Shown here: positions 2,207 through 24,503 of the stretch, one piece after another | Numbering within the stretch: the stretch's first letter is position 1 | How the letters are laid out: every line of letters begins with the position of its first letter | Origin: Hondaea fermentalgiana | Lineage: Eukaryota; Sar; Bigyra; Thraustochytrida; Thraustochytriidae | Direction: 5' to 3' | NCBI GenBank assembly: GCA_014084085.1 | Contig: NPFB01000166.1 | Coordinates: 169,832-195,898 of the forward strand | DNA: 26,067 bases | Notes under the pieces: model-generated | Told to the model about the DNA's origin: nothing | Databases searched by the model: none | What the model saw: only the letters and a program-made list of their open reading frames with translations | Made by a program: the position numbers and the translations under genes

Positions 2207-5200
2207 CTACGAGTGCGAAGTCGATGCCGACGAGTCCTGAAGATCCTCGAGCTCTTCGGTGGTAAAAGCCTGCTTCGTCTTCTCCCAGGTATCGGCGTGC
2301 GTGCGCTTGAAATTAGCCACGGCCTTTTTCGCCTCATTGCCGACGCCGGCGGGGTCGTTGACGCGCCGAGCGAGTGTGACCACAGCCTGTGGGAACGGAA
2401 CCGTGTACGGAAAGGCGTTGACAACCGCGGCAAGACCGAGAACTCCAGTCATGCGTTTCTTGAGCTTTTCGCGACCCTCATCCGTCTTGTACTGGTCGCG
2501 CTTCACCTTGGTATTGGCCAATTTGATGTAGCGGTCGCGCGTCACCTCGAGTGAGGCAGACTCTGCCTTATACGCGGAGAGAACCTGCATGAGCATCACG
2601 CTTGCAACCGTTTGCACCTCGACCTGAGGATCGCGCAAAAGTTTCTCAATTTCTTTGCGCGTGTGAATAGCGCCCATAGCGTACCCGAGGGAGAACATGT
2701 TGAGCGAAAAGAGTGCGCCCAGTAACTGCACGACCGCCGCGCGAGCGTGCCACAGCTCCACAGGAAGGGAGAATTCGCTAATAGCCCGCACAAGCTCAAG
2801 AGCAGTCGTGCTACTCACGAACGAGACGCTCGCCATGCAGCCTGCAGCAGACTTGGCCTTGTTGCCGACGTCCACGTTCGGGTGCCCTTGGGCCTCGAGC
2901 ACCACAGGCACGCACTTAACCAGATAGCGATCGACAGCAGGTCCTCCGCACATGACGATGGAAGCCGTCAAGTGCATTGACGTTTCATACGAGCGAGTTG
3001 TGGCGCTTGCTTCCTTTTCGCGAGGTGTGCCCACCACAGCGTCAAAAACACCCGCGAGCATCTTGTCAGCCCACGAGGTGCACTCGAGCTCGCGGCGCAT
3101 GCAGACGTCAATGAGGGCAGCCATTGTCCTGCCGAGCTCGCGACGGACAGTTTCGTAGGAATGCCCGGCGCTCTCCGCCAGTCGAGGCGCTAGCTGCGCA
3201 CACGTGTCGGAAAGCTCCGTCGAAGGCTCTGACTCGTAGACAAGCGCCCGCACCACGCGCAGCATGTTGGTTGTCTTGACCGAATCCGAGGTGTCGAGCG
3301 CAGCGTTCAATACCGCCGTAAGACGTTCCGCAAAGACACTGAGATGCACGCCCTCTGCGGGCGCCAGCCGAAAAGCGTCGAGCCATACCTCGGCGGTATC
3401 AAGACTGGTATCATCAAAGGCTCGCAGCACCATGTCGAGCAGACCGTCATGGCCTCCAGCGCCGCCATTCACCAGACCAGCAAAGATCTCCGCGGCGGCG
3501 CTCACGCGCGACTGGTGCTCGGCCGTCTCCTTGCCTTCAAAGAGTAGCGACTCGAGGTGAGGAAGCAGGGCCGAAACGCACGCATCGGCGCCGAGTGCGT
3601 CAGTGAGACCTCGCATCATGAGCATGTGCGACGTATTAAAGTTCTTGGCGTGAGAAGGCATACAGGTACGCGGGTAGAACCGCGACCCTGGGTACCGCGC
3701 CAGGCGCAGGAGCTCTCCGACACCAGCGGACCAGTCTGACTTTTGTTTGATGCCCTTGGCATTGCCGTCCACCGATACGGTAGCGTTGCTGTGATTTTGC
3801 GCGAGCGTCTCGGCCATGGAAGCAAACTCAGCGGACCCGAGATTCAACTTTTTCACGGCCTTGGGCTGCTCCGAAGCAGGAATCACCTGCAAGAGCTTGA
3901 CCAGTGTCGATGATGCAGCAGAACGGAGCGGCAGAACATCGCTTGTTGTACGCGAAGCCAGCCACGCCAGTACATCAGCATCTACCGCCTTGTCGTCCGC
4001 GCGAGCGATCGTGCCCGCGAGGACGCAGGCTGCAATTTCGTTCCGCCATGAAAGCCCGCTTGGCGCTTCGCAAGTAACGTCGCGAAGAAGCTTGGCTCGC
4101 AGCGGCTCAGTGTCGTCCGTGACAGGAATGCGCGTCCACGCTTGGAGGATGAGGACCATGAGACCGCGAATGCCGTCGGCAGCAACGCGCTGCTTGTCCT
4201 CTGGCAGGTCAGACACGCTCGCCTCGAGGATGAGCGCACGCATGCACTGGTCGTACAGGCGCCAATCCGTGGTGATCCAGCGGACAATTTTGTTCCACGA
4301 GAGCAAATCCCCTGCTCCCAGCACGCGGCCATGGAGTTTCTTTTCCAAAAGGGAGTCGAGCAGATCCGGGACTTGAATCTTGCCAAACCAGGGCGCACGA
4401 GAAATGATGTCCTTGATGGCATCGGCAGCGCTCTTGCGGGTATCGTCCCAGTCGTGCTCATTGGCCTTGACGAGTGCATTGAATACCTCTTGAAGTGCAT
4501 CCTCGCGGCGGTCATCCTTGTCAGCGCGAGCAAACTCATGCGCCCATTGGTGTTTTTGCAGGCTGTAGAGAGTCTGCACAGCGTCAATCTGGTGGAATCG
4601 CGGGACAACCCAGTCCTTACGGTCGGGAATGTCCTCGGACCGCGATGCTCGCACTTCTTCGGCAAAGGCTAGGGAGTTCATCATGTTGCGCATGTAACTA
4701 AACCACATGCCTCGGCCCTGAAGATTCTTTTTCGACCGAGAACTCGCGCCATAGGCGCTAATGACCATGCGAATCGTCTTGATCACCCGACGGTGCGAGA
4801 CTGTGTCCGTCTCTCGCTCTTTGAGAAGGGTCACGAGCATGTCGCCGAGCGTGCGAAGTTGCTCATGGCGCTCGGATCTTTTCTCGCACATGGCCGAAGC
4901 GGCACGCGTGACTTGAAAGAGAATCTCGAGCTCTTTGCGCAGGGCCGTGCTCGAGGCATTTTCGGCCATCACCTTGTTGTAGCCGTCCATGGCGCGTGTA
5001 CGGTACTGCTCCATGAGGCGCTTGGCCATGTCGATTTCCTTCTTGCTCGGCTCGTGCCATTGCACCGAGGCGCACGTGTCTGTCCAAGCCTGGGGCTGAC
5101 CCCACATGACTGCGGCGCGAGTCATGGCCTCCTTGTCCGCATCGTCCTCCATGAAAAAGGAACTGCGTGTGGGAATGTATCGTTCGCACAGACCACGCGT

Positions 5201-7492
5201 GACACGACGCAAGAGCTTGCCGCCGAGCTTGCGCACGCCCGCATCCTCGTGCTCAAGCGCAAGGTCGATCGCACTGACAAGGTCCTTTTCGTACGGCAAA
5301 AGGTACGGACCAAGCACACGGGCCATGGCACCAAGGATGGTGAGCGCCCACTGCAAGGTTCGTTCGGAAGCACCAGACGAGGTTGCGCGCGAGAGCATCG
5401 GTTCGAAGAGCCCATCAAGCACAACTTTCTGGATGGCCTTGTCGTCCTTGCCGGCCACAAAGCTTGCCGTGTAGGAACGGACCAGAGACTTGGACTCGCG
5501 GTTTGCGTCGAGGTACACTTTGTCGAGTGCCCATTCGTTGATGCGTTCGCCTGCACGAGCGCGCACGGCAGGACTCATCTGGGACATGAGCAGCCGGCTC
5601 GTAATGGCAATGCCGGAAAAGACTGCATTGTCGAGCTGGCCGGCCATGCCACCCTTGGCGCGCTTGACCTGGTTTCCAATGAAAATGAGCAGGCGTTCGA
5701 GACAGGCCAGCGACCACTCGACCAAGATTGCGTTTCCGCGCCACATGGCGTCGCGCATCGGGGCCTCATCGTTCGTCTGTGCCTCCTTGTCTGGGTCGTC
5801 GATGCCAAAACTCACAGAGAGACCCTCCTTGATATCCTTGGAGTCGCCAGTCAGCGTCGGCGGCTTGGACGGGTACTCGAGCCCTTCGGCTTCGATGTCA
5901 ATGATGGGAATCCAGCTCAGCACGACTTGATAAAACATGCTCGTCGTCACTGTCTTGAATACGTCATTTGAGTCAATACCTGGCAGGGTGAGCTCGAGGA
6001 ATTCCGGAAGCGCTTCGGCGAGCACCGGGCGAACCTGCAAAAGCGGCTGCAAAAGTACTGTCAGCATTTTGATTGCAGCAGGGGCATGGTGTGTCTGGTT
6101 AAGATTGTTTGGGTCAAGTGCCTCGGCAACAAGGGTGATAAAGTGGTCCGCGACTGTGAGCGGCGCCACGTACGCGAGCTGACCAATGCTGACCTGAGCC
6201 AGGTGAACGACAGAACGAACCTTGGAGTACATGCCCATGGATACAAGCGGAAGCATTGTCGCGACAAAGGCACGCTTGTCCTCGACGGAAAAGGGCTCGT
6301 CGCCGGCAGGGAGCTCACCGACGCGCTCGCGACCGAGGTAGCGCACGAAGGCCTCGCAAAGTGCTTCCGCAAAAGATGCAATGCCCGTCGTGTGCCGGTC
6401 AGCATTACTCGGGTGAAAGAGCGTCTGCGTAGCCGTGAGAAGCCTGCGGAGGTGCAAAAAGCCCGCCGAGAGATTCTTATCACTCTCCAGACAGCTCGCA
6501 AGCTCGTCGCGGCTGTTGGAGGTGAGCAGGACTTGTGCCTGGTCCACACCTCCAACATGCGTGCCGTAATAGTCCGTGGCAGAGCACTGGCCCATGAGAC
6601 GGACGGCAATGCCTGCGCCGTAGGCAGATCCGGCTGTTTTCGTGCCAAAGGGAGAAAGGTAGAGGGGTCGCGAGGTGCGCACAGGCGGCGTGAAGCCACT
6701 GGGCGAAGGCAAGCGCAGAGAAAGCTGCACGCGCCGCATCAGCTCGGCCACGAGGGCTGCATCACCATCGACGCAGGCGGTGGCCCCACCCCATTTGAAT
6801 GCGCGACGAATGACACGAAGCCAGCCAGCATCCCAGTCAGCGCAGTGCTCGATCTTGGGCCATTCATTGAAAACCCAGCGCTGCACGTGAGGGGCATAGA
6901 CGGCTCCTTGAACAGAAGGCAAAAAAAGCGTCAACACAGTCTGGCCGATAAAGAGGTCTCGTGAGAGCGGGTCTACCATGTACGAAGAGGCCTTGTCGCA
7001 TACTTCTTCGACAATGTCTGCGCTGTAATAGAATCGTGCCGCGCGGCAAACATCCGCAAGCGCGCCTGCATGTCCGGCAAGAACTTTCGACGACCCGAGC
7101 TCGCCTTCTTGGGGCGAGCGCTCCTTCCAGTGCACGTTTTCGGCGAGATTGAGCAAGTCTTTCCACTCGAGCTTGGTCAGCTTGGGCGCAAGCCCTTTGC
7201 GGCGTTCTTTAAGGAATTGGTGAAGCGCTTTAAGCGTCTTGATCTGCTCGTTGAGCGTCTGACCCTCAAGCTTGAGAAGCTCGAGCAGCAAATCTACGAT
7301 CGCTGCATGGTCGTCTAGCGAAAGATTACCCTTGAGTTCCAAAAAGGTGGTCAAGCCACGCGCCGCAACCAAGGCGAGCGTGGCATTCTTGTCCGCAACG
7401 GCCTCGCGCAGGTCTACGAGTGCCTTTTCCGCTGCCTCGGGCTTGGCGCTCAGGCTCCGCTCCGGGAGCGCGTCCACGAGCACGTGCTCCAT
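2207..7492 (-). CDS. PSME4: proteasome activator PA200/Blm10 (PSME4 family)
   Basis: This encodes a 1761-residue HEAT-repeat solenoid, close to the usual 1800-2100 of the family. PA200/Blm10 caps the end of the 20S proteasome, opens its gate in an ATP-independent way, and acts in nucleus and cytosol in DNA repair, histone turnover and proteasome maturation. The N-terminal region has the Trp-rich signature of the family (VFNEWPKI followed by a WDAGWL segment, about residues 207-230). A middle block around residue 500 reads ALPEFLELTLPGIDSNDV, close to the family's Leu-Pro-Gly-hydrophobic-Asp-Pro-Asn-Asp block. The C-terminal domain (about 1670-1761) carries GVLGLAAVVNAFPY, then NDP and NFKRTHADTW, the hallmark of the DUF3437 tail. 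The start is the ATG at 7490-7492; the frame runs on to a GTG at 7513 but has no earlier ATG. Oddly, the protein ends Thr-Ser-His-Ser, whereas animal and yeast members end in a hydrophobic-Tyr-X gate-opening motif. It is transcribed towards the coiled-coil gene and away from the ROCO gene's 3' end. Confidence 0.93.
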   Translation of the reverse strand: MEHVLVDALPERSLSAKPEAAEKALVDLREAVADKNATLALVAARGLTTFLELKGNLSLDDHAAIVDLLLELLKLEGQTLNEQIKTLKALHQFLKERRKGLAPKLTKLEWKDLLNLAENVHWKERSPQEGELGSSKVLAGHAGALADVCRAARFYYSADIVEEVCDKASSYMVDPLSRDLFIGQTVLTLFLPSVQGAVYAPHVQRWVFNEWPKIEHCADWDAGWLRVIRRAFKWGGATACVDGDAALVAELMRRVQLSLRLPSPSGFTPPVRTSRPLYLSPFGTKTAGSAYGAGIAVRLMGQCSATDYYGTHVGGVDQAQVLLTSNSRDELASCLESDKNLSAGFLHLRRLLTATQTLFHPSNADRHTTGIASFAEALCEAFVRYLGRERVGELPAGDEPFSVEDKRAFVATMLPLVSMGMYSKVRSVVHLAQVSIGQLAYVAPLTVADHFITLVAEALDPNNLNQTHHAPAAIKMLTVLLQPLLQVRPVLAEALPEFLELTLPGIDSNDVFKTVTTSMFYQVVLSWIPIIDIEAEGLEYPSKPPTLTGDSKDIKEGLSVSFGIDDPDKEAQTNDEAPMRDAMWRGNAILVEWSLACLERLLIFIGNQVKRAKGGMAGQLDNAVFSGIAITSRLLMSQMSPAVRARAGERINEWALDKVYLDANRESKSLVRSYTASFVAGKDDKAIQKVVLDGLFEPMLSRATSSGASERTLQWALTILGAMARVLGPYLLPYEKDLVSAIDLALEHEDAGVRKLGGKLLRRVTRGLCERYIPTRSSFFMEDDADKEAMTRAAVMWGQPQAWTDTCASVQWHEPSKKEIDMAKRLMEQYRTRAMDGYNKVMAENASSTALRKELEILFQVTRAASAMCEKRSERHEQLRTLGDMLVTLLKERETDTVSHRRVIKTIRMVISAYGASSRSKKNLQGRGMWFSYMRNMMNSLAFAEEVRASRSEDIPDRKDWVVPRFHQIDAVQTLYSLQKHQWAHEFARADKDDRREDALQEVFNALVKANEHDWDDTRKSAADAIKDIISRAPWFGKIQVPDLLDSLLEKKLHGRVLGAGDLLSWNKIVRWITTDWRLYDQCMRALILEASVSDLPEDKQRVAADGIRGLMVLILQAWTRIPVTDDTEPLRAKLLRDVTCEAPSGLSWRNEIAACVLAGTIARADDKAVDADVLAWLASRTTSDVLPLRSAASSTLVKLLQVIPASEQPKAVKKLNLGSAEFASMAETLAQNHSNATVSVDGNAKGIKQKSDWSAGVGELLRLARYPGSRFYPRTCMPSHAKNFNTSHMLMMRGLTDALGADACVSALLPHLESLLFEGKETAEHQSRVSAAAEIFAGLVNGGAGGHDGLLDMVLRAFDDTSLDTAEVWLDAFRLAPAEGVHLSVFAERLTAVLNAALDTSDSVKTTNMLRVVRALVYESEPSTELSDTCAQLAPRLAESAGHSYETVRRELGRTMAALIDVCMRRELECTSWADKMLAGVFDAVVGTPREKEASATTRSYETSMHLTASIVMCGGPAVDRYLVKCVPVVLEAQGHPNVDVGNKAKSAAGCMASVSFVSSTTALELVRAISEFSLPVELWHARAAVVQLLGALFSLNMFSLGYAMGAIHTRKEIEKLLRDPQVEVQTVASVMLMQVLSAYKAESASLEVTRDRYIKLANTKVKRDQYKTDEGREKLKKRMTGVLGLAAVVNAFPYTVPFPQAVVTLARRVNDPAGVGNEAKKAVANFKRTHADTWEKTKQAFTTEELEDLQDSSASTSHS

Positions 7493-8568: not shown

Positions 8569-11500
8569 TCATGATCTGTACGCAAGAGAACCAGCAGGAT
8601 ACCACTTCAAAAGCTCTTTCCGGGGTACTGACTCATCGTAAGGAAAGATCTCGGTCAGGATTCTCTCCACCAAATAGTCCAGATTTTCCTGAATTTTCTG
8701 TGTGCTGGATAGGTCGACCCAAATTCTGCCAACAAGATCTGGCGCACCTTGCTCGCTAATGGTCTCCGTCTCCGTCATGTGGGCTCGAATGATCGTGTCC
8801 TCCATCGAGCCAGTGTCTTTTCGATGAATTGCATAATTGTACTCGAGCTTGCAATAGTTTCTCCTGGCAGTGACTTGGAGCTTGTCCATGAAATTTGGAG
8901 TAAGACAGAACATAACGACATGGGAATCGTCAATTCCTGATGCCATCCAATCTACCATGTTCTTCCTTTTCAGGTCCCTTCCATCAAACCAGGTACGAAT
9001 ACCTTCTCTTTCAAGGCACGCTGACAGGTCCCCAACGCAAGCATGATTGATCTCTTCATGTTCGCCGGAAAAGTTGTTCCAGCTGTGTGACAAGAATACG
9101 TCTCGATCGGTTCGCATGCGAGTTTCAAATATGGCCACAGCTTTGGTCATTTCCCTCGCCTCGTCCAAGCCAATGCCTTCGTTCCAAATAAGCTTCACGA
9201 ACTTTTTCAGTGTCTGCCACAGCTGCACGTCATGCTCGTGCAGCCCAAAAGCGGAAGGAGAAGCGGACTCATGTACAGCGGCTCTGGAGACATCGCGAAC
9301 TCTTAGCATGCTGAGCAGGTATCTGACGGCTTCTGTGAGCATATCCCGAGGCGTGACATCTGTACGAGCCAGCAACGTCTTTAATGCTCTCCGAACTCGA
9401 TACTTGAAAGACCACAGAGCTTCCCCTCCTTGGTGCTCCGTAGGCTCCGCAAGGGTAAGCAAAGACGAAACGGGTGCGATGCGCGTTCGTGCTACCTTCT
9501 GGACAATTTCTGAACATCCTGCATCGATATGGCGCTGTGGTACTTCACCATATGGGCTGCTAATAATGTTGACACTGCTCAAAATCACTTCCGATTCCCG
9601 TGTGGTTTTATTCACCTGACGATGGGCAACAGACTCCAAGAGCTCACGCAGTATTCCATACTTGCCTCCCGATGAAAGAAAGAGTTGCGTGCCCCAAGAA
9701 TGCAGCTTTTGCTCTTGAAGGTACACGTCGACATGACGCAACACGACACTAAAGCTATCAAACAATGCAAAGCGATGCGATTTATCTGATGATGAAGACC
9801 ATGCTTTAATCTCGAGGCGTCCAGAACCTTGCAGGTCATATCCCTGTGCGAAGGCAAAGTACGATACGATCTCACCCTCATCCTGATTGACATCTTTGAC
9901 TGTGGTGGTTCCAGTGAACCTGAACTCATCGAGAACTGAGAGGTTCTTGATCACGCGATAGCAACGCGACGCCAGGCGTAAAAAGAGGCTCCTTGGCAGC
10001 ACGAGATCGAACTCACAATGCCAATGAAGGATTGCCGATTCTGGGCAGGGTGTGCTCGCCAAAGTCCGAGACATCTTCCGAGTATGCTCGTCTTTATACA
10101 CGCGAGGAAAGTTTGATTGGAACAAAAGCGGAACCATGTATTCTGTCCCAAGGTCTAGCCCGCTTGTTCGTGATGGTAATGTGAATAACAAATCGTGCTC
10201 CATGAAGAATTCCAAATACGTTTGCTTGTCGTCCCCCAAATCGCTCCACGTTTCAAGACATTCGCTTGTCATATTTGGCCCAGTGCGCGTTCTGCAAGGG
10301 CTGATCGGAATCTGATCGAGAAGTGCATCTGTCAGCACACATTCCTGCTCAAGACGCTTTTGACCTACTTCCAACTTCTTGGCCCTTAAGTTGGCGAAGT
10401 TCGTCGGCACATTTGAGTTCCCGATCTTGTAAATTACGCCTCTTTCTCCTGTTTCCGGGTTTAAGAACAGATCGTGACGAAAGACAGAGCGCACAACGTC
10501 GACGAGCCACACGGGGTCGGTAAAAACCAAGTGAGCGAGGTTTGGATTCTGGCTGCACCACACCACCTGCCCGAGGTCATTGAGCAGTTGCAACGCCCGT
10601 TCAAAATCCTCGTTGCCATCGAGGGAAAGGTACCCCAACGCCTTCATTTGACGTCGTACATTTGAAACGTTACGCACGGTGACGCGCATGTCGCGCACCT
10701 TCGGCTCAGGGGGCAGCACATGGTCAAAGAGCATATTGCGAAGCGCGACATACGGTTTGGGCAGGCGCAATGCGATACGATACTTCGGGTCGCAGGTAAA
10801 CGTATGAAGCATATTGTAGAGATCTTCAACGCCATCAGGGGTCTCGTTACTCAGGATGAATGATTTCTTCAGAGGTGCGAAGGTCATTTCGCAAAGCGCT
10901 CGAAGTCCGCGTCGAAGCACGGCTACTCTATCCATAATTTTTCGAAGCCGGTCCTCTGAACTTGGACCGGCGAAAGACTTGGATACTAGATCAGATTTAG
11001 TCCCAACAATGACCAAATGCACTCGAGATGTTTGGACAGCCAGAGCGCGAAGCCAGCGCCCCGCAGTATTCTCGAAGTATTCGTCAGAATCCCTGTATGC
11101 GTTGAGGTCCATTACGAGCACGACGAGGCTTCGACTTGAAATAAAGAGAGAGTGGGTCATGTAATACTCTTGCTGTCCACCAAAATCCCAAAGCGATACC
11201 TCCCCGGGAATCGTCCCATGGCCGCCGGTATCGAACTTTAGCTTCCGGATGTCCACGCTAATCGTCGCGCGATCAGGGCCTATCATCGTCAAGTCTGAAG
11301 TCATACCTTTCGAAGCAAGACAATTTGCTAAACTTGTCTTGCCGGAGCCCTGTGGACCCACGAGAAGGACCTTGAGTTGCGCAAGCGAGCTCGTACCATT
11401 TGCTAGATCATTGAAATACTTGCGTACGACAGCAAGACCAGAATACAATATTTCCTCGGGTATATCCACCACAGCTTCCGTTCTACGTCTTTGGCATTCC

Positions 11501-12777
11501 TGAGCGTAGCTTTGTGCTATCGAGTAGAGTTTATCATTGCAGGCGACGCGCTTACAATCAGGTCTGAGAATAGCGAGTGCAACAGACCCTTCCTTGGTGT
11601 TTCCGCTGAAATCGAGGCGTTCGAATGAAGAGTTTTTCACTAACGCATTCGCCAGGGCTCTGCTCCCTTCAGCGCCAATCGAATTCTCTCCAAGATCCAG
11701 CGACTTCAAGGCTCTTGCGTCGGCGATCGCTTTCGCCAGGCAAACGGCCCCCTTTGAGCGAATCTTGTTATCGTGTAAGCTCAAAATTTGAAGTGATTCA
11801 TTGTATGTAAGAGCGTCCGCCAGCGCTGCAGAACCTTTGTCATCAATACCATTAGACCGAAGATCGAGCTCGAGAAGAAATTGATTCACCTTTAGCGCCT
11901 CCCCAAGTGACTTCAAGGCGCCGTTGCCGTTGTCAGTGCCGATGCCAGTGCGTCCAAGACGAAGTGTGTGCAGCGATCCGTTCCATTTCAGCGCGGCTGC
12001 CAATGCTATCACCCCCTCATCACCAAGTGCATTCCCACAAAGAGAGAGCAGCTGCAGCGAATTATTCCTCGCGAGGGTCAACCCAGAACCGGATCGGGCC
12101 CACGATGTAAGAAGATATTGTGTTGACCTTTTCGTAGCGAGCGCGAGCGCAAATGCCTTTGCACCGACATTCGAAATGCCACAGTGATCAAGAAAGAGCT
12201 CTTTTAGCGAATCTTTCATATATATCACGTGGGCAAATGATTTTGCTCCCTCGTCCTTGATCCAGGTATGGCAAAGGCAAAGCGTATGCAATGAGTCATT
12301 GGCCATGGAAAACTCCGCAAGTGCTTTGGCGCCATCCCGAGAAACCCAATTGGGCCGCACATCAAACTCAAATTTGTCCTGTAATGAAGAATCTGGGTTG
12401 CTCAAGTCGATACTTTCCAGCGATCGATTCTGCATGAGAGCCTGCACAAGATCCTTGGTGCCTGTGTCGCTAATCCCAGTGGCATTGAAACAGAGTCTTT
12501 TCAGTGTCTGGTTTTCCTTAAGCGCATCTGTCAGCCACATAACTCCATCGTCTCCAATAAATGTAAATGCTGCGTCGATTTCCTCCGTTACGTCATCTTC
12601 GATCAAATCACGAATCTCCTCTACTTCATCACTTTCGAATATTTCGTGCTCAATTTCGTGCTCAATTTCGCGCGCACGTTTTTCATGCGTTGTCACAGGC
12701 GACGGCGCGCCACCGCTCGACAGATCCGCGAGCGACGCTGCTTGGTCAGCAACAAAGGAATCGGAAGCAAGCGGCAT
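8569..12777 (-). CDS. LRR-ROC-COR-TIR multidomain protein (ROCO GTPase with C-terminal TIR)
   Basis: From the ATG at 12775-12777 this encodes 1402 residues. An acidic N-terminal region (EIEHEIEHEI repeat near 38-46) leads into ribonuclease-inhibitor-type leucine-rich repeats (about 75-400), with recurring GA-x-x-LA-x-AL and L-x-L-x-x-N-x-I patterns. A ROC GTPase follows: P-loop GPQGSGKT at 474-481, switch motif DFGGQQE at 531-537, and G4 motif TKSD at 593-596. A COR-like dimerisation region spans about 660-1050 and a linker region reaches about 1225. The C-terminal TIR domain (about 1225-1375) has DVFLSHSW, WFD and SGIDDS, then CKLEY, whose Glu at about 1312 sits where NAD+-cleaving TIRs have their catalytic glutamate. 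There is no signal peptide or transmembrane segment, so it is likely cytosolic. ROCO proteins are GTP-regulated dimers; TIR domains signal by self-association or NAD+ hydrolysis. A sensing-switch-effector role is my inference. The gene is visibly more AT-rich than its neighbours. The frame continues to a TTG at 12858, adding 27 basic residues without an ATG. Confidence 0.93.
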   Translation of the reverse strand: MPLASDSFVADQAASLADLSSGGAPSPVTTHEKRAREIEHEIEHEIFESDEVEEIRDLIEDDVTEEIDAAFTFIGDDGVMWLTDALKENQTLKRLCFNATGISDTGTKDLVQALMQNRSLESIDLSNPDSSLQDKFEFDVRPNWVSRDGAKALAEFSMANDSLHTLCLCHTWIKDEGAKSFAHVIYMKDSLKELFLDHCGISNVGAKAFALALATKRSTQYLLTSWARSGSGLTLARNNSLQLLSLCGNALGDEGVIALAAALKWNGSLHTLRLGRTGIGTDNGNGALKSLGEALKVNQFLLELDLRSNGIDDKGSAALADALTYNESLQILSLHDNKIRSKGAVCLAKAIADARALKSLDLGENSIGAEGSRALANALVKNSSFERLDFSGNTKEGSVALAILRPDCKRVACNDKLYSIAQSYAQECQRRRTEAVVDIPEEILYSGLAVVRKYFNDLANGTSSLAQLKVLLVGPQGSGKTSLANCLASKGMTSDLTMIGPDRATISVDIRKLKFDTGGHGTIPGEVSLWDFGGQQEYYMTHSLFISSRSLVVLVMDLNAYRDSDEYFENTAGRWLRALAVQTSRVHLVIVGTKSDLVSKSFAGPSSEDRLRKIMDRVAVLRRGLRALCEMTFAPLKKSFILSNETPDGVEDLYNMLHTFTCDPKYRIALRLPKPYVALRNMLFDHVLPPEPKVRDMRVTVRNVSNVRRQMKALGYLSLDGNEDFERALQLLNDLGQVVWCSQNPNLAHLVFTDPVWLVDVVRSVFRHDLFLNPETGERGVIYKIGNSNVPTNFANLRAKKLEVGQKRLEQECVLTDALLDQIPISPCRTRTGPNMTSECLETWSDLGDDKQTYLEFFMEHDLLFTLPSRTSGLDLGTEYMVPLLFQSNFPRVYKDEHTRKMSRTLASTPCPESAILHWHCEFDLVLPRSLFLRLASRCYRVIKNLSVLDEFRFTGTTTVKDVNQDEGEIVSYFAFAQGYDLQGSGRLEIKAWSSSSDKSHRFALFDSFSVVLRHVDVYLQEQKLHSWGTQLFLSSGGKYGILRELLESVAHRQVNKTTRESEVILSSVNIISSPYGEVPQRHIDAGCSEIVQKVARTRIAPVSSLLTLAEPTEHQGGEALWSFKYRVRRALKTLLARTDVTPRDMLTEAVRYLLSMLRVRDVSRAAVHESASPSAFGLHEHDVQLWQTLKKFVKLIWNEGIGLDEAREMTKAVAIFETRMRTDRDVFLSHSWNNFSGEHEEINHACVGDLSACLEREGIRTWFDGRDLKRKNMVDWMASGIDDSHVVMFCLTPNFMDKLQVTARRNYCKLEYNYAIHRKDTGSMEDTIIRAHMTETETISEQGAPDLVGRIWVDLSSTQKIQENLDYLVERILTEIFPYDESVPRKELLKWYPAGSLAYRS

Positions 12778-13390: not shown

Positions 13391-14707
13391 ATGTCTTCCG
13401 TCATGGCGCGGCGGTTCGCGCGCCGAAGCCTCGCGAGCGTGGCGAAGAGGGCACCGCAGATGCCCAAGGCAGGGGCCGTGGGCTGCTGCCGCCAGGGAAC
13501 GCAGCGCATGATGAGCTCCCTGCCGCCCCAGCCAGCGGGCAAACGGTCCGGCGAACAGAGTTTCTCGTCGTCATCTTTTGCCAGGGGCGCAGCGTTTGCT
13601 CTCGGCGGCGTCCTTCTCTTCGGCCTCGCTGCAGGATCCTACAACACGGATGAGAAGCGCACAGAGACGCGCAACGAGGTCCGCTGCGAGCAGCGCAACA
13701 GCATGCTTGCAGGCTACGATGTAGCACAGCCGGGATCGACGGAAAAGGCCTCGCCGGCAAACTTTGGACCGCATTTCATCGCCGATGCTGCAGAAAAGGC
13801 CATCCCTGCGCTCGTCAACATTAGTTCCATCCAGAATGGTCCGTGGGGCCAGATGGTCCAGTCCGCTGGTTCTGGCTTTGTCATTCGTTCGGATGGTCTC
13901 ATCGCCACCAACGCTCACGTTGTCAAAGGCGCATCCAGCCTTACCGTAACGCTCAACGACGGCCGCCAGTACCAGGGACGTGTCTACGCTACGGATCAAA
14001 CGTCGGACCTTGCGCTGGTGATCGTCACTGACATTCTTGAGGAGCCTTTGCCCATTATGCACATTGGCGACTCGGGCCTCTTGCGCCCCGGAGAATTTGT
14101 GGTGGCCCTCGGTTCGCCGCTCAACCTCGGCAACTCCGTCACGGCAGGGATTGTTAGCTCGACGGCACGTGCCGCATCCGAGATTGGTATTATGCAGGCT
14201 CGCACGGACTACATTCAAACCGACGCTGCCATCAACCAGGGTAACTCTGGCGGCCCTCTCATCAACCTTGACGGTCAGGTGGTCGGCATCAATACCATGA
14301 AGGTCGCTGGCGGCGACGGCATTGGTTTTGCTATTCCCATCAACACGGCGTGGGTTGTTCTTTCTCAGCTTCGCGACACCGGCAAGGTCATTCGACCGTA
14401 CCTTGGCTTGCGCATGGCTGCTCTCAACCGAAACCTCGCCCGCTTCGAGCGACGCGTCTCCAAGCGTTTTCCGGATGTTGAGTCGGGCTTGCTCGTCGTC
14501 AAAGTTGCGCCTAACTCGCCTGCGTCTCGCGCTGGGCTCAAGCCGGGTGATGTCATTGTAGAATTCGACGGTAAAAAGGTCAAGTCTGTAGCAGAGATGA
14601 CCACGCGCATGGCCTACGAAGTTGGCAAGACCTTCGATCTTACCGTTGTGCGGGAAGGTGGACAGAAGATTTCCATGTCTGTCACCACCGAGGCTCTCAA
14701 TCTCTAA
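13391..14707 (+). CDS. HTRA2: mitochondrial HtrA2/Omi-type serine protease
   Basis: This encodes 438 residues. HtrA2-type proteases are trimeric PDZ-regulated serine endopeptidases of the mitochondrial intermembrane space that degrade misfolded proteins and, in animals, promote cell death when released. The N-terminus is rich in Arg, Ser and Ala and lacks acids (about 1-25), like a mitochondrial presequence. One hydrophobic segment (about 64-82) should anchor it in the inner membrane. The trypsin-like domain (about 130-325) has the full triad: His176 in TNAHVV, Asp206 in TSDLALV and Ser286 in GNSGGPL. Blocks such as YIQTDAAINQGNSGG and GINTMKV match the eukaryotic HtrA2 branch. A single PDZ domain follows (about 335-435), with GLLVV as carboxylate-binding loop region. 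The ATG at 13391 is chosen because the presequence begins there; the longer frame starts on GTG at 13253. No AVPS-type IAP-binding motif follows the membrane segment. It diverges from the ROCO-TIR gene. Confidence 0.95.
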   Translation: MSSVMARRFARRSLASVAKRAPQMPKAGAVGCCRQGTQRMMSSLPPQPAGKRSGEQSFSSSSFARGAAFALGGVLLFGLAAGSYNTDEKRTETRNEVRCEQRNSMLAGYDVAQPGSTEKASPANFGPHFIADAAEKAIPALVNISSIQNGPWGQMVQSAGSGFVIRSDGLIATNAHVVKGASSLTVTLNDGRQYQGRVYATDQTSDLALVIVTDILEEPLPIMHIGDSGLLRPGEFVVALGSPLNLGNSVTAGIVSSTARAASEIGIMQARTDYIQTDAAINQGNSGGPLINLDGQVVGINTMKVAGGDGIGFAIPINTAWVVLSQLRDTGKVIRPYLGLRMAALNRNLARFERRVSKRFPDVESGLLVVKVAPNSPASRAGLKPGDVIVEFDGKKVKSVAEMTTRMAYEVGKTFDLTVVREGGQKISMSVTTEALNL

Positions 14708-20611: not shown

Positions 20612-22237
20612 TCAAATCGCGGCAATCACTTCCTTTTTCACAGCCTCGAATTCTTCTTGCGAGATCTCGCCTCGATCGAGCTTCTCCCGCGCCTCCTTGA
20701 TTCTCTGCAAAGGTGACAGAACGGTACCGGAGGCATCGGAACTTGCTGCCGGCATTGCTGCCGTTGCGGCTTCGAAAGCACTACCGGTGCCTTGCGCGCT
20801 AGAGGTCTCTTGAGACTCTACTCCGAACGAGAGTAGGTCATTCGCGTCACTGCTTGCGACGGCGGACTGTGCTCCGGTACCGGGTGAAGGGGTGCTCTCC
20901 TTGGGAGTAGAGCTTTCCTCCGCGGCGCCAAAGTCAAGCAGATTATCATCATTGTCATCAGCACTTGTGCCTTTCGGCTCACTTGACTGAGCATTGTAGT
21001 CAACGTTGTAGTCTTCGCTCCCAAGCAGGTCCTCGGAGGAGAACGTGCTCGAATTTTGCTCCTGAGCCCCGACCTTTTCGTCCTGCCCGTAATCGCCAGA
21101 CAAAAAGTCCTCGTTGGTCTCTTCTTGCACGGTTGTCTCCTGGTAGCTCGGGGGCGCCGGCGCTGAGCTTGACGCTGTTGGATATGGCGGCGCCTCTTGT
21201 TGTTGTTGTTGTTGTCGCTGCTGCTGCTGTTGCTGCTGCTGCGCTTCCTGCGCAAGAACTTCTGCACGAAGATCCTCAGGCAAGGCGGCGAGAAAGTCCT
21301 CTCGCTCTTTACGTTCAGCTTCAGACATTGGTGGCGGCGGTGGTGGAGCGGCTTGCTGCTGGTGTGACTGCTCATGCATGGAGCTAGCTGCAGGGGCTGG
21401 TGTTGGGGCCGGCGCGGCAGCGAGCTGTGCAGCCTCACTGGCCATAAGCTCAGCACGAATATCCTCAGGTAGCGCTGCAAGAAACTCTTCGCGCTCCTTG
21501 CGCTCCGCTTCTGTCATGGGGGGTGGTGGCGGAGCTTGCTGCGAGGAAGGCGGCTCGCCCGTAGGAATGTCAAGCTCGTCACCCGGTTGGCAACCATTGG
21601 GCACGAGGACAGAGACCCTCGTCCCCGAGGGGAGAACCACGGGAAACGTGCCGCCTGCAGAGACGCCCTGCGGAATGCGCACGCGGACCATCTGCGAAGA
21701 CGATGCGTTGGCCATGGACTGCCCTTGTGATCCGTTCACGCCAGAGGTGACGTAGGTAAATGACATGCCCGGCTGGAGGCCCGGAGGGACCTGGACCCGC
21801 TCAACACCTGCGCCAGGAATCTGCACGGCGATAAATTGGCCCCCAATTACGCCCGCAGGCACCGTGCACTGGATCCGGAGCGCGTTCGATTGCCCGCTGA
21901 GCTCCTCCTGAAGTCGCTGCGCGAGTTTGCGATCTTCTTCTTCAATGATGCGTCTCGCGCGGATCTCAGAGTAAATCTGCTCTTCTTCGCGACGCAGGTC
22001 CTCCTGAAACTGCTCATTATTGCGCATCTGCGCAGAGAGGGCCTCGTCGGCGCCCGAACGCTGGCTATGCACCCGCGTCGGGGTCACCCTTCGGACGCCG
22101 GCGCCGTCGTTGTCGTCGTCACCGCCGCCCTCCACGCCCAGCAAGCTCTCGTTGAGGGGCATCGCGTCTAGCAGGCCGCTATCTCCATCGTTTCGCACGC
22201 CCCTGTTCAGGCCCACGGCGTTACGGAATCTGTCCAT
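20612..22237 (-). CDS. ubiquitin-binding adaptor-like protein (MIU, two UBM-like motifs, PPxY, SHOCT-like tail)
   Basis: This encodes 541 residues from the ATG at 22235-22237, in a near-ideal context (GCCATGG); the frame continues to a GTG at 22486 without another ATG. An Arg/Glu helix with EEEDRKLAQRLQEEL (about 99-113) fits the MIU/UIM-like ubiquitin-binding pattern. Two beta repeats follow (about 119-166 and 183-226), each with V-x-V-P-x-G and PG turns. Next come two copies of a module (about 241-268 and 304-332) with poly-Pro followed by EREEFLAALPEDIRAEL or its variant; the LP-x-D-I/L-x-x-E core is that of UBM/DUF4414 ubiquitin-binding motifs of HUWE1-type ligases. A poly-Gln tract (about 333-347) precedes PPSY (362-365), a WW-domain ligand. 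The acidic C-terminal half has LLDFG and LLSFG (about 433 and 468), resembling clathrin-box motifs. The last 34 residues (QRIKEAREKLDRGEISQEEF) look like a SHOCT domain. Together this suggests a ubiquitin-linked trafficking or ligase-adaptor scaffold; no catalytic domain is present. Confidence 0.85.
   Translation of the reverse strand: MDRFRNAVGLNRGVRNDGDSGLLDAMPLNESLLGVEGGGDDDNDGAGVRRVTPTRVHSQRSGADEALSAQMRNNEQFQEDLRREEEQIYSEIRARRIIEEEDRKLAQRLQEELSGQSNALRIQCTVPAGVIGGQFIAVQIPGAGVERVQVPPGLQPGMSFTYVTSGVNGSQGQSMANASSSQMVRVRIPQGVSAGGTFPVVLPSGTRVSVLVPNGCQPGDELDIPTGEPPSSQQAPPPPPMTEAERKEREEFLAALPEDIRAELMASEAAQLAAAPAPTPAPAASSMHEQSHQQQAAPPPPPPMSEAERKEREDFLAALPEDLRAEVLAQEAQQQQQQQQRQQQQQQEAPPYPTASSSAPAPPSYQETTVQEETNEDFLSGDYGQDEKVGAQEQNSSTFSSEDLLGSEDYNVDYNAQSSEPKGTSADDNDDNLLDFGAAEESSTPKESTPSPGTGAQSAVASSDANDLLSFGVESQETSSAQGTGSAFEAATAAMPAASSDASGTVLSPLQRIKEAREKLDRGEISQEEFEAVKKEVIAAI
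21197..21241. repeat. CAA/CAG repeat encoding poly-glutamine
   Basis: On the plus strand a TTG run passes into a CTG run with a single CGC interruption. Read on the minus strand it encodes about 14 Gln interrupted by one Arg, within the ubiquitin-binding adaptor gene. Confidence 0.9.
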
Positions 22238-22997: not shown

Positions 22998-24503
22998 TCA
23001 CTTGAGGAGATGCTCCGCGACGACCTCGGACTTGAGAAAGTTTGACCAGTCCTTGTCAAACTGGGCCTGCGCCTTGAGAACAGCGTCGTGATCGAGCGTG
23101 GAGCAGCGGAAGCTCGCGCGCGCAAGGTGCTTGAGCTGCGCAAGCGTCAGGCCCCAGGCCTTGGCAACCAGCGCAAAATCGTAAGTCACGTCATCATACC
23201 CAAAGGTGGCTGCGTCGTCGGATGAGATGGTGATTTTGACGCCAGCGTTAAGCATCATGAGACCAGGGTGATTGCGAAGATCATCAACATAACCAAGGCA
23301 CTGGTTGGACATGGGGCAGCACTCGACAGTAATACCGCGCTCCTTGACGATGCGCACGAGAGACGGATGCTTGGGGAGCGCATAGGCGTGGCCAATGCGC
23401 TCGCAACCGAGGGCGATCGCGTCGTACAGCTGCTCGTTGTTGGGGTCAATGGTCTCGCCAGCGTGAAGAAGGAGGCGGCCGCCGCGATCCTTGTAGTACG
23501 CAAGGGCGTCGACATAGGTCGAAATGGGCTTGAGAGAATCCTCGTGGCCCACCAGATCGAAACCAGCAATCCAGCCGGGGTACTTTTCCTCCAGTCTCAA
23601 CACAGTGTCTACATTCTCGCGCACAACTTCAGGGGAAAAGACCTTGAGCGCAGACCACACCATCTTGGCGCCCACAAAGGTCGGGTTTTCCTTTTTGAAA
23701 AGCTCGACAGTAGCAATGAAGGTGTCCATGAACTCGTCAATGGTGGCTTCCCGGTTGATTCGCTCGCCGTTATTCTCTGGTTTGACAAAGCCCACCGGGA
23801 TGAGCTGCTTGATCTCTACGTAATTGACGCCGGTCTTGAGAAGCTGCGTGAGAATATCCCAAAAGTAGGAATCGCGGCCGTCCCAGAGCGGCAAGGCGTC
23901 CGAGAGCTCGCGAACGCGGTTCCAGCAGTGCTGAAAGACTGTCCAGCGCTTGTCGCGCGGGGTGTCGGGCGGGACCTGCAGATATGCGAGCACCTCGACC
24001 TCGTCGAGGTCGCTGATCGGGACCCAGCCTCCGCGGGTCTGCATGTGATTGGTCGCCTCGCGGTTGGTCATGTACCGGATTTCGCCCTCGATCGCGGTCT
24101 CCTCGTAGTGCGCCTCGGAGCCTGGCGCACGGGCTGCCACGTCGGCGGCTCCGTCTTCGTCCAGCTCGGGGCCCACGTAAATGTACACGAGGTCGTCCGC
24201 TTGGAGTCGTTTCACGAGTGATTCAAAGGGCCCAGTGGCGATGCCGTGCGTGTGCAAGAGGGCACCCTTGGGCATCTTTTCGAGGACCTTGAACACGGGG
24301 CTCTCTTGCGCGGTGCGTCGAGTGTGCATGAGGTGGTCGCTGGGGTCGAGGCCTTCATCGTTGCGCAGCAGCTCGTCAAAGGCCTTCTCCGCGCGCTTTT
24401 CGACCTCGCTGTCTAGCAGGTCATAGTCCACGCTGTGGAACGACTCGAGCAGCACCTGCTTGCGCAGCGCTTCCTTGCGTTGCTCGAAGAGCGCCGACGA
24501 CAT
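22998..24503 (-). CDS. ADA2: adenosine deaminase, ADGF/ADA2 type
   Basis: This encodes 501 residues from the ATG at 24501-24503; a longer frame begins on GTG at 24560. The enzyme deaminates adenosine (and deoxyadenosine) to inosine in purine salvage. The N-terminal helical region (about 1-70) resembles the ADGF N-terminal domain. The TIM-barrel metal and catalytic motifs are present in order: MPKGALLHTHG (77-87, with metal-binding His84 and His86), FDLVGHED (about 315-322), LLLHAGET (His347 and catalytic-type Glu350), ERIGHAYAL (His372), ECCPMSNQCL and ISSDDAATFG (Asp429/430, metal ligand). The MPKGALLH and CPMSNQ signatures place it with ADGF/ADA2 rather than classical ADA1. Animal ADA2 is secreted, but here the start (MSSALFEQRKEALRKQ) is polar and charged with no signal peptide, so it is probably cytosolic. 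It is transcribed towards the adaptor gene, with a long gene-poor flank upstream. Confidence 0.95.
   Translation of the reverse strand: MSSALFEQRKEALRKQVLLESFHSVDYDLLDSEVEKRAEKAFDELLRNDEGLDPSDHLMHTRRTAQESPVFKVLEKMPKGALLHTHGIATGPFESLVKRLQADDLVYIYVGPELDEDGAADVAARAPGSEAHYEETAIEGEIRYMTNREATNHMQTRGGWVPISDLDEVEVLAYLQVPPDTPRDKRWTVFQHCWNRVRELSDALPLWDGRDSYFWDILTQLLKTGVNYVEIKQLIPVGFVKPENNGERINREATIDEFMDTFIATVELFKKENPTFVGAKMVWSALKVFSPEVVRENVDTVLRLEEKYPGWIAGFDLVGHEDSLKPISTYVDALAYYKDRGGRLLLHAGETIDPNNEQLYDAIALGCERIGHAYALPKHPSLVRIVKERGITVECCPMSNQCLGYVDDLRNHPGLMMLNAGVKITISSDDAATFGYDDVTYDFALVAKAWGLTLAQLKHLARASFRCSTLDHDAVLKAQAQFDKDWSNFLKSEVVAEHLLK

Follow-up and report, generated by a model that had tools for sequence, protein, structure and literature searches.

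The 26,067-nucleotide stretch of Hondaea fermentalgiana DNA analysed here (the window; contig NPFB01000166.1, positions 169,832 to 195,898) contains a gene whose single reading frame joins leucine-rich repeats (LRRs), a ROC GTPase domain, a COR region and a C-terminal TIR domain (Table 1). The initial annotation had described this fusion, and Pfam matches, motifs and a predicted structural model bear it out. All 1402 codons are uninterrupted, and the stop-to-stop frame (1448 aa) holds a further 46 codons upstream of the ATG. The LRR motifs have a period of 28 residues, a spacing of the ribonuclease inhibitor (RNI) type; ribonuclease inhibitor and the LRRs of NLRP proteins are among the solved LRR structures that they match. 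The P-loop, switch and TKSD motifs that had been read in the ROC domain are intact. A COR domain lies directly after ROC, the arrangement that defines ROCO proteins; its COR-A stretch (residues 718-768) scores below the Pfam cut-off, and the predicted model aligns with the ROC-COR parts of LRRK2 and of the C. tepidum and M. barkeri Roco proteins. Between COR and TIR, model confidence (pLDDT) is below 50 at residues 1050-1119, and helices are predicted thereafter.

Table 1. Features of the LRR-ROC-COR-TIR gene and annotated neighbours, in window coordinates.
Feature	Position	Strand	Remarks
LRR-ROC-COR-TIR gene	8569..12777	-	one frame of 1402 aa, from the ATG at 12777 to a stop that ends at 8569
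RNI-type leucine-rich repeats	11569..12504	-	residues ~92-403, limits approximate; LRR_6 E 1.5e-17 and motif spacing
ROC GTPase domain	10990..11373	-	residues 469-596; Pfam Roc E 5.4e-15, over cut-off
P-loop GPQGSGKT	11335-11358	-	intact, within ROC
DFGGQ	11173-11187	-	intact, within ROC
TKSD	10990-11001	-	intact, within ROC
COR-A and COR-B region	9610..10770	-	residues ~670-1056; outer limits from the model, approximate
COR-TIR linker	9127..9609	-	residues 1057-1217; partly low-confidence, then helical
TIR domain	8686..9099	-	Pfam TIR_2 stretch 1227-1364
Glu1312 codon	8842..8844	-	putative catalytic glutamate, near start of helix alphaC
PSME4-like proteasome activator	2207-7492		
HtrA-like protease with PDZ	13391-14707		runs away from the LRR-ROC-COR-TIR gene, start at 13391
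Protein with ubiquitin-binding UBM motif	20612-22237		
Adenosine-deaminase-like protein	22998-24503		

The domains that are absent help to place the protein. No kinase domain follows COR: none of the 23 Pfam families with a match at E 0.1 or better is a kinase. NB-ARC gave no Pfam match in the protein, and a NACHT match of 13.7 bits covers the P-loop alone (residues 470-490). A simple hydropathy scan found no transmembrane-like stretch between the LRRs and the TIR; the top 19-residue Kyte-Doolittle mean, 1.31, lies inside the LRR region. We therefore rejected a Toll-like receptor (TLR), and, since NB-ARC was found neither in the protein nor in the genome, we also rejected a nucleotide-binding LRR receptor (NLR). 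Defence models gave weak matches of the TIR type (bSEFIR, 28.4 bits; ThsB, 21.4) and one P-loop match, and the NCBIfam scan gave small_GTP alone, below cut-off.

The gene is one of a large family. We scanned the 36.0-Mb, 238-contig genome that contains the window; the counts for TIR, Roc, COR-A and LRR are lower bounds. TIR_2 matched 73 times at E 0.001 (68 over the Pfam cut-off), Roc at least 93 times, ordinary small GTPases included, and COR-A at least 33 times. The genome is thus very rich in TIR domains. Matches were paired when they shared contig, strand and open-frame length and lay less than 6 kb apart. The pairing took in all TIR_2 and COR-A matches and 34 of the 93 Roc matches, a selection that sets aside ordinary small GTPases and the majority of split fragments. 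In 28 of the 73 cases the TIR_2 match lies in frame behind Roc and COR-A; in every one of them the three matches share a codon phase, and the order is always ROC-COR-TIR. A few of these 28 depend on matches below cut-off, namely the COR-A of the gene studied here and both TIR_2 and Roc of the frame on C15. Seen from the COR side, 29 of the 33 COR-A matches are in frame with a TIR_2 and four are not. Besides the 28 there is a single frame that joins COR to TIR alone. In a COR-TIR frame (L019, C198:179183-181063) a run of unknown residues occupies the place where part of the ROC is expected. Among the ROC-COR-TIR frames LRR_6 matched in the gene studied here alone, a lower bound from the 150 of 213 candidates that were scored. 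NB-ARC had no match in the whole genome, although a very divergent NB-ARC would escape such a scan, and none of the eight NACHT matches lies within a TIR frame. ROC-COR is the commonest nucleoside triphosphatase (NTPase) switch found with TIR in this genome.

TIR domains also occur with other partners, and the TIR alignment contains two diverged types. Two long frames (L061 on C106, L072 on C183) have LRRs and a kinase-like stretch and share their open-frame length with a downstream TIR_2; the kinase-like stretch of the former and the TIR_2 of the latter are below cut-off. Judged from this layout, they are probably LRR-kinase-TIR proteins. There are ankyrin-TIR fusions (L069 on C233, L065 on C59), a kinase-TIR fusion with a Cys-rich stretch between the two domains (L071 on C152), and TIRs behind other N-terminal parts (L008 on C6, L023 on C72). 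Acyl-carrier matches do not form the closely spaced array to be expected of a thraustochytrid PUFA synthase.

Proteins with these domains are not confined to this genome. A first search returned 17 proteins, three of which (P0002-P0004) combine Roc, COR-A and TIR_2 in one chain, like the gene studied here. These three, presumably also from Hondaea to judge by the style of their names, are shorter and have no LRR in the precomputed Pfam list. A profile search then yielded 60 proteins from 7996 scored candidates, and at least 22 of these 60 carry Roc, COR-A and TIR_2 in their Pfam lists. Psychroserpens, Sphingobacterium, Chitinophaga and Tenacibaculum are among the named bacteria in that set, with others. 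Nine of the 22 were tested by position, and all nine have the order Roc, COR-A, TIR_2; LRRs stand in front in eight of the nine, four of them from named bacteria, and in P0032 the LRR match falls just under the cut-off. The domain order of the Hondaea gene therefore recurs in bacterial proteins. Pfam probably undercounts ROC-COR-TIR proteins, since P0022, a ROCO protein from the database, has a TIR-like stretch at residues ~819-931 (YDVFLSYRW..., scoring 13.8 bits against the family profile) that received no Pfam TIR call.

The domain combination had been proposed to be unusual in itself, a view that these bacterial examples and the literature do not support. Kaur et al. (2021, eLife, PMC8195603), in the part of the paper available to us, describe prokaryotic proteins in which N-terminal LRRs and an AP-GTPase with COR are combined with at least 24 C-terminal domains, TIR among them. 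The counter-invader role given to the AP-GTPase-COR proteins in that text is a prediction. Such systems also tend to comprise several paralogues with different effectors in one genome; the genome scanned here has many paralogues, with TIR_2 in frame for 29 of the 33 COR-A matches. The order of N-terminal LRR, ROC, COR and C-terminal effector is common to those systems and to the protein studied here; the latter differs in being eukaryotic, in its RNI-type LRRs and in a ROC-COR that groups apart from the other TIR-bearing database proteins. Eukaryotic parallels can be drawn from descriptions. The red alga Chondrus crispus has a ROCO protein with TIR and with TPR instead of LRR (Teng et al. 2024, PMC11378527, as described in the available text). 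TLR-like and MyD88-like proteins of Aplysia, classed with those families, carry ROC-COR as well as TIR, two of them with extra MBT or EF-hand domains (PMC9334734, available part). For Trichoplax ROC-COR proteins the likeness comes from a figure legend, which lists TIR too (PMC4104024). A full-text search of Creative Commons-licensed papers in PMC found no published work joining TIR domains with thraustochytrids. We conclude that the gene is genuine and well formed, a eukaryotic representative of a type already known. What is new is its setting, a large ROC-COR-TIR family in a protist genome, and it is this surrounding family that gives the gene its interest.

The closest paralogue in the same genome, here called C30 (C30:110432-113743; G000, L059/L060), is 33% identical over residues 438-951 of the query, and the nearest named relative is a partial H. 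fermentalgiana protein, FCC1311_117802 (P0021), which ends before any TIR. Identity to P0021 is 42% in the BLAST match, which covers 70% of the query part, and 46% in the alignment, and P0021 is the nearest row in a ROC-COR tree (Shimodaira-Hasegawa approximate likelihood ratio test, SH-aLRT, 83). That tree was built quickly from 74 rows, with 12 of 86 hits left out as too short, and has several long branches, including that of C30. It puts the studied gene, C30 and six Hondaea/ENA rows in one group (SH-aLRT 95) and 17 rows from the same genome in a second (93), so that the 19 own-genome members are split between two groups; the other TIR-bearing database rows are placed elsewhere. In the TIR tree the gene again falls with C30 and with four Hondaea/ENA rows (87). 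Of the 38 inner branches of the TIR tree 16 are weak. As 18 of 25 database proteins escaped the TIR profile, this tree says little on the TIRs of bacterial ROCO proteins. A recent transfer of the gene from bacteria is not supported, because the ROC-COR tree groups it with Hondaea/ENA rows and away from the other TIR-bearing database rows, though that tree has the limits just given. The simplest reading of the sequences would be a single old fusion behind the group of the studied gene, with the remaining members belonging to ROC-COR-TIR lineages of their own; this is provisional because of the long branches.

These relatives also bear on whether the fusion is an artefact, be it two neighbouring genes read as one, a chimera from the assembly or a pseudogene in decay. 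The fraction of G or C at third codon positions (GC3) is 0.529, compared with 0.557-0.763 in the seven other frames examined, and the C-terminal half of the TIR is divergent, both of which would fit an artefact. However, GC3 is fairly even along the gene (0.49-0.60 per full 200-codon block), the frame is free of stops throughout, and the P-loop, DFGGQ, TKSD and TIR glutamate are all kept. In addition, 27 further frames of this genome, as well as P0002-P0004 and P0019, have the same domain order. We consider an artefact very improbable, and we rejected the two-gene and chimera versions of it because there is one frame and its order recurs in relatives.

The nature of the TIR domain is central to what the protein might do. 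Glu1312 had been assigned to the position of the catalytic glutamate of NAD+-cleaving TIRs (NADases), and the placement holds: in the predicted TIR model it is residue 95, within helix 91-104. The glutamate is present in 33 of 34 aligned TIRs (31 from this genome and three database proteins). When a profile of 27 own-genome TIRs was compared with the PDB, the NADases Cat1 and AbTir ranked first, with their own glutamates in the family column. The predicted fold resembles SARM1 and SPARTA, which, like AbTir, share the TIR fold and lack ROC-COR. The glutamate is thus intact, and NADase activity is plausible; the integrity of the enzyme as a whole is at most a plausible prediction from sequence and model.

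Several observations weigh against an enzymatic TIR. The profile of own-genome TIRs ranked TLR15 (36.1 bits) above SARM1 (30.6) in the PDB. The TIR of the gene by itself matched one PDB sequence, weakly (E 0.4), and this was a TLR15/TLR2 entry with a glutamate at the same place. By itself the glutamate is weak evidence for an NADase, since a TLR TIR also has one at this position, and TLR TIRs are not known to be NADases. Signalling TIRs reach about the same fold scores (IL-18R-beta 14.5, MyD88 13.9). SARM1 (W638), AbTir (W204) and plant TIRs have a tryptophan four residues before the catalytic glutamate; none of 35 TIRs examined (31 own-genome, four database) has one, and the residue here is Tyr1308. 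Across 26 paralogues, 33 columns are conserved at a level of 60% or more; the TIR of the gene keeps 21 of these and differs in 12, and seven of the nine that follow residue 1316 have changed, including a common tryptophan that is Ile1340 here. The TIR of C30 is degenerate: it has lost the FLSHSW start, has alanine in the glutamate column and matches 9 of 34 conserved TIR columns. C30 retains a ROC with an intact P-loop and, by alignment, a COR (its Pfam match is Roc alone), and its sequence suggests a possible pseudo-TIR ROCO protein.

Much of this evidence would fit a TIR that serves as a non-enzymatic assembly module, with ROC-COR controlling homotypic contacts between TIRs and so the recruitment of further TIR proteins of the cell, among them ankyrin-TIR, kinase-TIR and other ROC-COR-TIR proteins, as in TLR and MyD88 signalling. 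The loss of conserved residues after the glutamate helix, the decay of the C30 TIR beside an intact P-loop, the fold scores and the glutamate of a TLR TIR all point this way, as does the abundance of potential TIR partners in the genome, kinase-TIR and ankyrin-TIR proteins included. Nevertheless, the glutamate has been kept in this TIR, as in nearly all those aligned, although its surroundings have diverged, and two NADases lead the PDB profile ranking. We regard an assembly role as a real possibility, at clearly less than even odds.

We propose that the protein is an intracellular ROCO-type receptor in which the LRRs would act as sensor, ROC-COR as a GTP switch and the TIR as an effector that cleaves NAD+ or a related nucleotide, a reading to which we give a probability of roughly 0.5. 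Most likely the LRR/ROC-COR body would bind a ligand or be modified, and its nucleotide and dimer state would change as a result. In the available account of the C. tepidum protein (CtRoco), the dimer forms without nucleotide and opens to a monomer with GTP (PMC11052575). By analogy, ROC-COR could be a nucleotide-dependent dimer switch in which GTP binding moves the LRRs and COR and exposes the TIR behind its partly low-confidence linker. The change in nucleotide or dimer state would then release or cluster the TIR, and clustered TIRs might cleave NAD+ or a related nucleotide and so produce a signal or kill the cell. We infer the LRR sensing, the nucleotide-driven switching, the NADase activity and the role in conflict (immunity or cell death) from these comparisons. 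LRRK2 and CtRoco share the ROC-COR fold and have no TIR; in the part of PMC11052575 available to us, LRRK2 ends in kinase-WD40 and CtRoco is LRR-Roc-COR only.

A receptor role is not the only use to which a ROCO protein could be put. The gene might encode a housekeeping or developmental signalling protein, as the Dictyostelium Roco proteins do, with the TIR as a domain for localisation or partner binding and no part in immunity. ROCO roles are very varied (PMC6337361, in the available text), and the flanking genes in the window gave no sign of a defence cluster by Pfam: four have the matches named in Table 1, and the three others have none. However, in a eukaryote the neighbours of a gene are a poor guide to its role, and a family of at least 28 frames in a single genome, with 19 tree members in two groups, looks more like receptors or conflict proteins. 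We therefore think a housekeeping role unlikely.

The family as a whole may serve as immune-type receptors. The initial annotation had suggested that ROC-COR takes the place of NB-ARC; as architecture this stands, with 28 in-frame ROC-COR-TIR arrangements and no NB-ARC match, whereas its dimer-switch part is drawn by analogy from bacterial CtRoco. That ROC-COR is the commonest NTPase linked to TIR supports such a substitution in architecture, not yet in function. We speculate, as an idea that we hold tentatively and consider rather unlikely, that ROC-COR-TIR proteins fill, in this lineage, the place of the NB-ARC and NACHT NLRs of plants and animals. In that case at least 28 genes would put TIR NADases under a Ras-like GTP switch and not under a STAND-type ATPase (signal transduction ATPase with numerous domains), and the gene studied here would be the LRR-bearing form.

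Should ROC-COR govern an enzymatically active TIR, the protein would be a testable one-protein system in which an LRRK2-like GTP switch gates the loss of NAD+, and it would link the question of how LRRK2 switches with TIR immunity. The 28 ROC-COR-TIR frames exceed the four or fewer ROCO copies per species given, in the available part of PMC11378527, for several SAR (stramenopile, alveolate and rhizarian) species other than brown algae. A TIR-rich protist with this many ROC-COR-TIR frames and no detected NB-ARC would represent a solution to sensing within the cell that eukaryotes reached independently, and the conflict proteins predicted in bacteria would gain a eukaryotic family that stands on its own.

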